Assembly (NCBI GenBank): GCA_005880315.1
Contig: VBHB01000169.1
Coordinates: forward strand, 1-32,442
Direction: 5' to 3'
Source of the DNA: Chloroflexota bacterium
GTDB lineage: Bacteria; Chloroflexota; Dormibacteria; Dormibacterales; Dormibacteraceae
DNA length: 32,442 nucleotides
The translations under genes were made by a program, and so were the position numbers. Positions 3,213 to 31,224 of the stretch are shown in pieces; position 1 is the first letter of the stretch, and the number at the start of each line of letters is the position of its first letter. The notes under the pieces were generated by a model. It made no database searches and had not been told where the DNA came from. It saw only the letters and a program-made list of their open reading frames with translations.

Positions 3213-4376
3213 GTGGATTTCGAATTAAGCGCGGAGCAGCGCGCCGTCCGCGAGCTGTGCCGCGACTTCGCGAAAGAGGTCGTTGCGCCGGCCGCCGAAG
3301 AGCTCGACCGCGATCACAAGTTCGGCTACGACATCGTGCGGCGGATGGGCGAGCTGGGCCTGTTCGGCCTGCCGTTCTCCGAGGAGTTCGGTGGCGCCGG
3401 CGCCGATTTTCTGTCGCTGTGCCTGGCCATCGAAGAGATCTCGCGCGCTGATGCCGGCGTGGGGATCACGCTCGAGGCGGCCGTGTGCCTCGGCGCTGCG
3501 CCCATTTACGACTTTGGGAGCGTCGCGCAAAAGCAGAAGTGGCTGCCCGACCTGCTCGCGGGCCGCAAGCTGTGGGCGTTCGGGCTCACCGAGCCGGAGG
3601 CCGGCTCCGACGCGGGGGCTACCAAGACTCGCGCCGAGCTGCGCGACGGTCACTGGGTCGTCAACGGCGCCAAGCAGTTCATCACCAACTGCGGCACCGA
3701 GATCTCGGCCGGGGTGACGGTGACGGCGGTGACCGGCAAGAACAAGCGCGGCGGCCCCGAGATCAGCGCGATCATGATTCCGACTGGAACCCCGGGCTAT
3801 CACGTGCTCGAGTCGTACCGAAAGCTTGGCTGGCACTCGTCCGACACGCACCCGCTGAGCTTCGAGAGCTGCGAGGTCCCGGTGGAGAACGTCCTCGGGG
3901 AGCGTGGCGGCGGCTACAGGCAGTTCCTGAACACTCTGATGGGCGGCAGGATCGCGATCGCGGCGCTGTCTGTCGGTGTCGCCCAGGCCTGCCTGGACGC
4001 ATCGCTCGCCTACGCGAAGGAGCGGCGCACGTTCGGCGTCCCGATCTCCAAGCACCAGGCGATCCAGTTCAAGCTCGCCGACATGGCGATGGAGACGGAG
4101 CTGGCGCGCACCATGGTGTATCGCGCCGCCACTGCCTATTCACATGGCGGCGGCAAAGCGACCGACGACGTGCGCATGCTCGCGGCGATGTGCAAGCTCT
4201 ACGCGTCCGAGACATCGAAGCGCGCGGCCGACCAGGCCGTGCAGATCCATGGCGGGTATGGCTTCATGGAGGACTACCCGGTGGCGCGCTACTGGCGCGA
4301 TGTCAAGGTCAACGAGATCGGCGAAGGCACCTCCGAAGTCCAGCGAATGCTGATCGCCCGCCTCCTCGGCGCCTAG
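3213..4376 (+). CDS. Acyl-CoA dehydrogenase (first of three)
   Basis: A 387-aa FAD-dependent acyl-CoA dehydrogenase that introduces a trans-2,3 double bond into acyl-CoA, passing electrons to ETF. The N-terminal helical domain starts MDFELSAEQRAVRELCRDF; the middle beta domain has FGLTEPEAGSDAG and the C-terminal domain has RRTFGVPISKHQAIQFKLADM and QIHGGYGFMEDYPVARYWRD. The catalytic glutamate is expected at Glu371 in IGEGTSEVQR, the short- and branched-chain type position. Length is normal. GTG 3213 is chosen from the family N-terminus. Chain-length specificity is not decided by sequence alone; short or branched acyl-CoA is likely. Its 3' end is 9 bases from the convergent YVTN gene. Confidence 0.95.
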   Translation: MDFELSAEQRAVRELCRDFAKEVVAPAAEELDRDHKFGYDIVRRMGELGLFGLPFSEEFGGAGADFLSLCLAIEEISRADAGVGITLEAAVCLGAAPIYDFGSVAQKQKWLPDLLAGRKLWAFGLTEPEAGSDAGATKTRAELRDGHWVVNGAKQFITNCGTEISAGVTVTAVTGKNKRGGPEISAIMIPTGTPGYHVLESYRKLGWHSSDTHPLSFESCEVPVENVLGERGGGYRQFLNTLMGGRIAIAALSVGVAQACLDASLAYAKERRTFGVPISKHQAIQFKLADMAMETELARTMVYRAATAYSHGGGKATDDVRMLAAMCKLYASETSKRAADQAVQIHGGYGFMEDYPVARYWRDVKVNEIGEGTSEVQRMLIARLLGA

Positions 4377-29367: not shown

Positions 29368-29712
29368 ATGATCGATCACACGAGCACACGAATTGAGCAG
29401 CAGGAGAGCGCACTGCGCCGCCTGAACCGGCGGCGTTATGCCTTCCAGCGCATGCTGAAGGCGACCGACCGGGTCCTGTGGCAGCTCGAAGAGATGAACC
29501 GGGACGGCGTGAAGAACGTGCCCGCGCCGTTGCGAACTGAGCTTCGGGGTGCGGTCGAGAACATGCCCAACCACATCCGCGAGCCGCTGGCCGACACGGG
29601 CCACGTCCAGGACACGCTCGACAGCCTCTTCGAGGTGCAGGAGCGACTCTTCCGGTGGCGCTTTCCCGAGTGGGACGACACCGAGCCCGACGACTTCGAA
29701 TACGCGGGCTAG
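29368..29712 (+). CDS. Unrecognised small protein, 114 aa
   Basis: I do not recognise a family. The 114-aa product is hydrophilic and mostly helical in character (ESALRRLNRRRYAFQRMLKATDRVLWQLEEMNRDG, then REPLADTGHVQDTLDSLFEVQERLFRWRFPEWDDTEPDDFEYAG). The basic first half and acidic C-terminal end are striking, and W/F residues cluster near the end. No cysteines, signal peptide or membrane segment. It is divergent from the Nudix gene and its stop overlaps the ZIP gene stop by four bases. Codon use is like its neighbours. Confidence 0.7.
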   Translation: MIDHTSTRIEQQESALRRLNRRRYAFQRMLKATDRVLWQLEEMNRDGVKNVPAPLRTELRGAVENMPNHIREPLADTGHVQDTLDSLFEVQERLFRWRFPEWDDTEPDDFEYAG

Positions 29713-30500
29713 GTGCTGGCCAGAGTTAACACGAGGTCGGTCGCGTAAGCCGTCAGGAACCCGAAGAGCAGGCCCCACGCGAATGACGTCGGCGTCGAGA
29801 GGCGCCTGCCGACATGGAACAGCTCGTTGACAACGTAGAGCAGCGCGCCAGCGGCGACGGCCAGGAAGGCGACGTAAAAGTAATTGGACGAGGCCAGGTA
29901 ACCGATCCAGGTGCCGAGGAAGGTCGGCCCGCCGCCGATCAGACCCGCAATGCCTAGAAAGCCCCATGACGCGGGCTTGGGATCCATCGTCATCGGCGCG
30001 GCGATACCGAATCCCTCGGTGATGTTGTGTAGCGCAAAGCCGACGACGAGGACGCCAACGAACGCGATCGCCCCGGCGCGAGCGGACTGCCCGATGGCGA
30101 GCCCTTCCGAAAAGTTGTGCAGACCGAGGCCGACGGCGATTGCAAGCGAGAGGCTGCGCGGGCTCGGTGTGTGGTCGGCGTGGCGCAGACGGCCGAACAC
30201 GGCCCGGTTGAAGTACACGAGTCCCAGGAGGCCGGCGCCGATGCCAGTGGCGAAGATCAGCGCCATGGCCGCGAACGCACCCACCCTCGCGTTCGTGCGA
30301 ACCGCCACCAGCGCCGTCTCGACGGGGACGCTCGCGTGGCTCAGGATGTCCCACAAGATGAAGATCAGGATTCCGGTCGCGAATGCGTTCAGGAACCCCT
30401 GCACGGACTTGGGCAGTCCGCGCATGCGGGCCACCGGCAGGCCCAGGAAAATGGTGACCCCCGCAACGGCTCCGAGGGCGACGGCTGTGGCCTGGCTCAT
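29709..30500 (-). CDS. ZIP family divalent metal transporter
   Basis: A 263-aa ZIP transporter importing zinc, iron or manganese. Eight hydrophobic segments are apparent. The metal-site helices are helix IV, SLAIAVGLGLHNFSEGLAIG, and helix V, LVVGFALHNITEGFGIA, with the paired HNxxEG motifs of the family. A short histidine-poor loop (RHADHTPSPRS) lies between helices III and IV. It is divergent from the DtxR-type gene with only 22 bases between the starts, so control by that repressor is likely. Confidence 0.92.
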   Translation of the reverse strand: MSQATAVALGAVAGVTIFLGLPVARMRGLPKSVQGFLNAFATGILIFILWDILSHASVPVETALVAVRTNARVGAFAAMALIFATGIGAGLLGLVYFNRAVFGRLRHADHTPSPRSLSLAIAVGLGLHNFSEGLAIGQSARAGAIAFVGVLVVGFALHNITEGFGIAAPMTMDPKPASWGFLGIAGLIGGGPTFLGTWIGYLASSNYFYVAFLAVAAGALLYVVNELFHVGRRLSTPTSFAWGLLFGFLTAYATDLVLTLAST

Positions 30501-30510
30501 GTCTCAGTCA

Positions 30511-30516
30511 TAGGAT
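30511..30516 (+). promoter_or_regulatory. -10 element TAGGAT of the leaderless DtxR-type gene
   Basis: TAGGAT ends 6 nt before GTG 30523. Read on the minus strand, AATCCT (30512-30517) sits 11 nt before the ZIP ATG 30500, again an overlapping divergent core. Both genes share a 22-bp gap, so any bound repressor would affect both. Confidence 0.45.
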
Positions 30517-30522
30517 TAGTAC

Positions 30523-31224
30523 GTGCGAAAGGCGCAATTAGATAAGTCTAACGGGGCACATTCGGCGCCTTCCGAGGTCATCTCCCGCTACCTCGAGGCG
30601 CTCTACTACATGTGGTCGGAAGGCGAGCCGCCCCGGAGCGCGCGCCTGGCCGACTGGCTGGGGGTGAGCCGGCCGACCGTGACTGCGGCCCTCCGGCGCA
30701 TGACCCGCGACGGCATGGTCAGGATGAACGGCCACAAGGAGATCGAGCTGACCGCGGCCGGCCGGCGGGCGGCGGAGTCGATCGTCAGGCGGCACCGCAT
30801 CATGGAGCGCTGGCTCACCGACGTGCTCGGTCTGGACTGGGTCGCGGCCGACGCCGAAGCCGCGCGCCTGGAGCATGCGATCTCACAGGTGGTCGAGCAG
30901 CGCCTTTACGAGGCGCTGGGACGGCCGCGCACGTGCCCCCACGGCAACCCAATCCCGGGCCACTCGACGGCTTCGGCGAAGGAGAGGCGTCTGGCCAGCC
31001 TCGAGGCCGGAGGCCGGGCCACCATCTCTCGTGTGTCGGAGGTGGCCGAGCGAGAGGCGCCGCTGCTGCTCGCCTATCTCGATGAGCGGGGACTCATCCC
31101 CGGCCGCGTCGTGAACGTCGTCGAGGTCGACGGGATCGGCCGCACGCTGCGGATCCGTGCCGGCAAGCGAGAGGTGACCCTCAGCCACGACACGGCTGCC
31201 AAGGTGTGGGTAGTGCCCGGATAG
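30523..31224 (+). CDS. DtxR/MntR-type iron/manganese-dependent transcriptional regulator
   Basis: A 233-aa metal-dependent repressor. The winged helix-turn-helix is SRYLEALYYMWSEGEPPRSARLADWLGVSRPTVTAALRRMTRDGMVRM, followed by the dimer and metal domain VRRHRIMERWLTDVLGLDWVAADAEAARLEHAIS with the H-x-x-x-E-x-W and E-x-x-H-A patterns of this family, GHPxxCPHGNPIP, and a C-terminal FeoA/SH3-like domain (ERGLIPGRVVNVVEVDGIGRTLRIRAGKREVTL). It is divergent from the ZIP transporter and probably controls it. A palindrome lies in its first codons. Confidence 0.92.
   Translation: MRKAQLDKSNGAHSAPSEVISRYLEALYYMWSEGEPPRSARLADWLGVSRPTVTAALRRMTRDGMVRMNGHKEIELTAAGRRAAESIVRRHRIMERWLTDVLGLDWVAADAEAARLEHAISQVVEQRLYEALGRPRTCPHGNPIPGHSTASAKERRLASLEAGGRATISRVSEVAEREAPLLLAYLDERGLIPGRVVNVVEVDGIGRTLRIRAGKREVTLSHDTAAKVWVVPG
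30538..30551. promoter_or_regulatory. Candidate metal-repressor operator palindrome
   Basis: TTAGATAAGTCTAA: perfect 5-bp arms TTAGA and TCTAA around TAAG, about 15 nt after the start codon. TTAG...CTAA is the half-site theme of DtxR/IdeR operators. It encodes Leu-Asp-Lys-Ser-Asn using TTA and TCT, codons rare in this GC-rich region, which suggests a DNA-level constraint. Confidence 0.5.

Follow-up and report, generated by a model that had tools for sequence, protein, structure and literature searches.

Organisation of the locus

A gene for a DtxR/IdeR-family regulator and a gene for a ZIP-type metal importer diverge from a short intergenic stretch of a Chloroflexota contig, from a group of soil bacteria that has received little study, and a palindrome lies within the first codons of the regulator. 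This arrangement raises the question whether the palindrome is an operator and, if so, which protein would bind it and what would be controlled. The whole stretch of DNA analysed (32,442 nucleotides) is called the window; its relevant features are listed below.

29709-30500, minus strand: ZIP-type metal importer, 263 amino acids, divergent; ATG at 30500; Pfam Zip 4.2e-08
30501-30522, no strand: intergenic stretch of 22 bp, seen in the sequence, which probably houses promoter parts of one or both genes
30516-30529, no strand: site B, weaker candidate site TTAGTACGTGCGAA, with one strict half (TTAG) and one degenerate half; overlaps the GTG start codon
30517-30519, plus strand: in-frame TAG within site B, which bounds the regulator start
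30523-31224, plus strand: DtxR/IdeR-family regulator, 233 amino acids; GTG start at 30523; Pfam PF01325, PF02742 and PF04023
30538-30551, no strand: site A, strong candidate operator site TTAGATAAGTCTAA of the form TTAG-N6-CTAA; regulator codons 6-10 (TTA GAT AAG TCT AA.)

The 22 bp said to be shared by the two genes in a preliminary description of this DNA were confirmed (30501-30522). The in-frame TAG at 30517-30519 places the regulator start at GTG 30523 or later. The leaderless gene of the preliminary description is at most a possibility, as an AGGA is located 7 nt ahead of this GTG and no sigma-70 consensus promoter was found. The window ZIP scored just below the Pfam Zip cut-off (33.2 versus 35.1 bits) and under the cut-off of the ZupT model (9e-11); two relatives scored above the Pfam cut-off (L170, 38.7 bits; L239, 58.5 bits). 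The window also carries a 114-aa gene (29368-29712) with no Pfam or NCBIfam match. Sequence similar to it is found directly upstream of the regulator where the ZIP gene is absent (L114, L116, L120), and it is possibly an older partner of the regulator.

Two elements 22 bp apart at the start of the regulator gene

The palindrome had been placed about 15 nt inside the regulator gene; TTAGATAAGTCTAA begins exactly 15 nt downstream of 30523, where the GTG starts. Its arms, TTAGA and TCTAA, pair perfectly around 4 bp. The string TTAGAN4TCTAA occurs once in the window, any copy of it in 0/100 dinucleotide shuffles, and once in the whole 3.25-Mb draft genome. The looser TTAGN6CTAA is found in two places in that genome, and its genome-wide frequency there shows no excess over a reversed control. 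The preliminary description regarded the codons at the palindrome as rare and AT-rich, which held in part: across the orthologues only TTA (5/979 Leu codons) and TCT (20/530 Ser codons) are rare, whereas AAG, AAC and GAT are not.

Site A was borne out, but not as the single element first described. It belongs to a two-site tandem whose second member, site B, had been missed and lies at a distance of exactly 22 bp. The TTAG of site B is present in 38/38 aligned rows, as is the third base (A) of its other half; the invariant upstream TTAG of the alignment has the form TTAGTACGYRCAAA.

Conservation of the DNA at varying protein sequence

A search for regulator orthologues gave matches at E 1e-45 in 81 of 110 genomes of the class. 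By family, the matches numbered 41 in f1 and 13 in f4, all of which were examined, and 26 in f2 and 5 in f3, for which 14 and 4 loci were fetched; near-identical loci from two collections were collapsed ahead of counting. The arrangement TTAG-N18-TTAG-N6-CTAA was found at the same position in all 49 genomes with a divergent regulator-ZIP pair (36 from f1 and 13 from f4), so that the TTAG of site B is likewise present in 49/49. One f1 genome that is 71% complete (G038) has neither regulator, ZIP nor site and was left uncounted. Site A is in frame in 48 of the 49. At the remaining locus (L103, G030:C78), omitted from the codon counts for this reason, both the palindrome and site B are preserved, yet they precede the regulator ORF and are not in its frame; this arrangement could be real or could be a draft-assembly error.

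The Leu codon in site A is TTA in 48/48 in-frame cases, compared with 5/1100 Leu codons in the remainder of these genes. At the fourth codon, TCT occurs in 29 cases, GCT in 16, ACT in 2 and CCT in 1 (Ser, Ala, Thr and Pro), so that NCT is kept throughout, as against 226/2809 NCN codons elsewhere in the same genes. Thirteen different pentapeptides are encoded across site A, among them LDKSN, LVQSN, LDNAN, LVRPN and LDHTN. In 17 cases, mostly from one large genus, the GTG was lost and the first start is an ATG that lies three codons further along and 6 nt ahead of the palindrome, whose position is unchanged. Orthologues with the same amino acids and no palindrome were not encountered; the reverse was seen, residues changing while TTAG-N6-CTAA stays. 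Together, these patterns indicate that the palindrome is under selection at the level of the DNA, as far as sequence comparison can tell, and the start of a coding sequence would thus be constrained by an operator rather than by the protein.

It is scarcely credible that the conservation is due instead to the encoded N-terminal peptide or to a hairpin formed by the beginning of the transcript. TTAGA-N4-TCTAA is able to form a 5-bp RNA stem, but the fifth pair is often broken (A29/T8/G1 at position 5 versus T30/G5/A2/C1 at position 10), the variation at this pair is non-compensatory and the folding z-score is only -1.36, and the hairpin was rejected. Conservation of the peptide was rejected as well, since its residues change in 13 combinations and the DNA does not. 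Moreover, ZIP and FTR1 genes have the site in noncoding DNA as well.

The site follows the transporter

In f1, five regulators have no ZIP neighbour, and the site is absent from all five loci (0/5), even when one mismatch is allowed. A protein search found a ZIP elsewhere in 4 of these 5 genomes, and each of the four relocated ZIPs has TTAG-N6-CTAA 47-67 bp upstream. The fifth genome (G019) has kept the regulator, but neither a ZIP match nor TTAGN6CTAAC was found anywhere in it. These loci serve as a natural control, the same regulator with no ZIP neighbour and no site, and together with the sites ahead of relocated ZIPs they argue that the operator follows the transporter and not the regulator. 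The window ZIP is thus the probable main target of the predicted operator. Autoregulated metal uptake, as proposed in the preliminary description, stands as regards the tie to an importer; autoregulation in f1 looks like a by-product of the shared promoter region. The ZIP-less f1 regulators included in a 53-sequence tree fell outside a group of 27 rows that have the divergent pair (support 89/91, not starred), suggesting a later origin of the packed arrangement.

The 22-bp step recurs away from the divergent pair. It was found upstream of the relocated ZIPs of G018 and G027 and at the FTR1 iron-permease gene of G018, which has two full sites; three f3 genomes show it in the interval from the regulator to FTR1. 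The second half-site at 22 bp is absent in G025 and G026. Sites near other metal genes, for which the preliminary description had suggested a search, do exist in relatives, at relocated ZIPs and FTR1, whereas the only other TTAGN6CTAA of the window's own genome sits in an unrelated ORF.

The same module in related families

Of the 14 fetched f2 loci, 11 have an IdeR-like box of 19 bp that differs from the IdeR consensus at 1-3 positions and begins between 9 bp before and 13 bp after the end of the regulator stop codon. The gene that follows the box is a ZIP (L239-L241, L250) or an FTR1, the latter with Pfam support in 4/5 tested genes. The second pair of G044 (L243), with a divergent ZIP, has a single site within its 80-bp intergenic gap; no site was found at L245 and L249. 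Since the 19-bp IdeR box consists of two TTAG-N6-CTAA modules with a 5-bp offset, f2 and f1 appear to share one module in two geometries. In six f2 loci (L244, L246, L247, L250, L253, L258) the 3' end of the regulator gene runs into the box, and the stop codon lies inside this operator-like sequence.

In f3, 3/4 fetched loci have a divergent FTR1 and a site that precedes the regulator by 17-21 bp; L252 has no site. Where the upstream sequence was complete, ZIP loci of f2 and f4 that lack a neighbouring regulator had a site in 3/6 cases and none in 3/6, two further loci cut at contig ends (L232, L238) being omitted from this count. Among more distant homologues (L022-L083, a set that takes in L033, a record matching the contig of the f2 locus L250), TTAGN6CTAA was found within -250 to +110 of the regulator in 7/62 cases versus 0/62 in a reversed control, which is no more than suggestive. 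Perfect intergenic palindromes, GTTAGTCCGGACTAAC or GTTAGTCGCGACTAAC, were seen in genus g2 (L157, L158, L160, L162-L164, L166-L168); their neighbours are varied non-metal genes, and they were therefore not counted as targets.

An alternative is that the conserved block serves chiefly as a divergent promoter for both genes, with TTAGTAC and TTAG/CTAA acting as -10-like elements, and not as a repressor site. The genes are only 22 bp apart, so promoter parts are probably present here, and little or no variation is seen in the TTAGTAC region. However, no match to a sigma-70 consensus promoter was found at the regulator/ZIP locus, and promoter elements account neither for the recurrence of TTAG-N6-CTAA, with a further TTAG at a distance of 22 bp, ahead of relocated ZIPs and FTR1 nor for the 19-bp IdeR-like boxes at related loci. 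We regard a mainly promoter function as very improbable.

The regulator, its metal site and a second DtxR-family protein

All three domains of the regulator scored above the Pfam cut-offs (PF01325, 36.2 bits; PF02742, 96.5; PF04023, 44.3). Their order, an N-terminal winged-helix HTH, a metal-binding/dimerisation domain and a C-terminal FeoA/SH3 domain, is that of the DtxR/IdeR/MntR family, and the protein matched IdeR in phmmer at 1.8e-38. It scored 139.6 bits against the NCBIfam DtxR/IdeR equivalog, short of the cut-off of 290, and 124.1 of 350, 69.7 of 153 and 37.1 of 138 bits against the MntR models, far below their cut-offs.

The metal site departs from both types. We take Glu105 and His106 to be primary ligands of IdeR beside Met10 and Cys102, and His79, Glu83 and His98 to be ancillary ligands. 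At the four primary positions (10, 102, 105 and 106) the window regulator has Arg, Ala, Glu and His, so that both sulphur ligands are gone. Across 43 rows labelled f1, a set that takes in two f4 rows (L016, L017), these positions read R35/H8, A41/E2, E43 and H42/Y1. Of the ancillary positions, His79 and Glu83 are kept in the regulator and His98 is replaced by Asp in 43/43 of the same rows; the ligands of the SH3 domain align unreliably. The f2 and f3 regulators lose Glu105 too. In IdeR, Met10 and Cys102 are reported to raise iron selectivity, and their MntR counterparts are Asp or Asn, with Glu (excerpts of PMC10317159); the window regulator has Arg and Ala at these positions. Lacking Met10 and Cys102 of IdeR as well as the MntR ligands, it may or may not depend on metal for binding.

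ZIP and FTR1 genes repeatedly swap beside one regulator clade, which favours iron. ZIP proteins transport several metals, and FTR1 belongs to an iron permease family (Pfam). Iron is thus the likeliest metal to be sensed, a view drawn from the neighbouring genes and not from the ligands, which are non-canonical. A branch of the DtxR family that lacks the known metal ligands yet is tied to iron-type importers makes metal recognition in the family testable.

The genome of the window encodes a DtxR-family paralogue (G000:C232:18054-18638) with ligands of the MntR type (Asp, Glu, Glu, His); it thus holds an MntR-like protein and, in the window regulator, a third type. The operator could be real and be read mainly by this paralogue, not by the product of the adjacent gene. 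The paralogue's own promoter carries TTAGG-N4-CCTA sites, in 4 f1 genomes the ZIP and its site are far from the adjacent-type regulator, and G019 retains such a regulator without any TTAGN6CTAAC site. Yet position 5 is G and position 10 is C in 20/20 aligned rows of paralogue promoters (chosen by a pattern demanding the G and a C), a combination that ZIP sites hardly ever have, and sites repeatedly adjoin the clade of the window regulator in f1, f2, f3 and f4. We consider control mainly by the paralogue unlikely. In the paralogue promoter (L124, G000:C232:14000-22000, about 3945 to 4002; L185-L203), TTAGG-type sites recur in steps of 22 bp, at 0, 22 and 44 bp; the second of them is degenerate and the third is often at the ORF start. 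The first is present in 20/21 loci and the others in most.

Proposed mechanism

Taken together, the conserved sequence at 30516-30551, with its fixed position and spacing and its tie to ZIP and FTR1 genes, is likely to be a bipartite operator of a DtxR/IdeR-type regulator, most likely encoded by the gene that contains it, that represses the ZIP gene and probably the regulator too. Each element would be a 14-bp TTAG-N6-CTAA site for a single dimer, site A strong and site B weaker, 22 bp (about two helical turns) off and on the same face. By analogy with SloR, site A would fill first and assist a second dimer onto site B. Dimers at both sites would cover the promoter of the ZIP gene together with the start of the regulator gene, so that the ZIP gene would be silent at ample supply of the metal, most likely iron, and expressed under scarcity, with the regulator partly self-limiting. 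The location of the operator within coding sequence may reflect the tight packing of the genes (22 bp here). The preliminary observation was right and stronger than claimed, and its interpretation right in kind and partly supported.

A wider and more speculative possibility is that these regulators form a distinct DtxR subfamily of Dormibacterota, in which an Arg/His-Asp metal site replaces those of IdeR (Met-Cys) and MntR (Asp-Glu) and which controls iron import via ZIP or FTR1 through TTAG-N6-CTAA modules arranged in either of two ways, as overlapping pairs with a 5-bp offset or as same-face pairs at a distance of 22 bp. One branch would have taken the same-face form of the operator, start codon included, into the regulator coding sequence, where selection on codons would keep it. 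If this is true, the metal chemistry, or even the metal requirement, would be new.

Comparison with known systems

Among titles and abstract openings listed from an open-access library for the terms used, we found no paper dealing with the window operator or with the control of metals in this phylum. The window regulator shares its family with MntR and has Glu at IdeR position 13, which we assume to correspond to MntR Glu11. Unlike MntR, it lacks the distinguishing Asp and Glu. SloR is presumably a DtxR-family protein as well. It resembles the system proposed here as a repressor of a metal importer with adjacent strong and weak elements, which it binds cooperatively at mntH (excerpts of PMC12096823). 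The SloR sites differ in sequence and lie upstream of coding sequence, and cooperativity, shown for SloR, would be expected for the window operator by inference only (PMC12096823).

The closest likeness is to DtxR/IdeR. The window regulator shares their domain order, and the window sites share the TTAG/CTAA half-sites of their 19-bp box, TTAGGTTAGSCTAACCTAA (excerpts of PMC8464063 and PMC10317159). In both systems the sites adjoin metal importers, in keeping with the DtxR-like half-sites noted in the preliminary description. The recognition-helix residues Ser37, Pro39 and Thr40 of IdeR are kept; the position of Gln43, reported as dispensable for IdeR binding (PMC8464063), is Val, Ala, Ile or Gly in the clade of the window regulator. 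Differences from IdeR are the replacement of Met10, Cys102 and His98 by Arg/His, Ala/Glu and Asp in this clade and, relative to DtxR and IdeR alike, the location of the operator inside the regulator's codons.

IdeR is reported to bind a 14-bp site as one dimer with an affinity of about 78 nM, which stays near 70 nM when CCTAA is changed to TCTAA (PMC8464063). Site A, TTAGA-N4-TCTAA, equals this single-dimer form, TTAGG-N4-CCTAA, with the tolerated change of the first C to T (C1 to T1; PMC8464063). Instead of the 19-bp TTAGGTTAGSCTAACCTAA, the window carries a site of the 14-bp form and, 22 bp from it, a weaker copy, and near-canonical 19-bp boxes are found in its f2 relatives. The IdeR operator is made of two 14-bp sites that overlap with a 5-bp offset, whereas the two window sites are 22 bp apart; a TTAG-N6-CTAA module at two spacings in one regulator clade thus offers a test of the DtxR-type arrangement.
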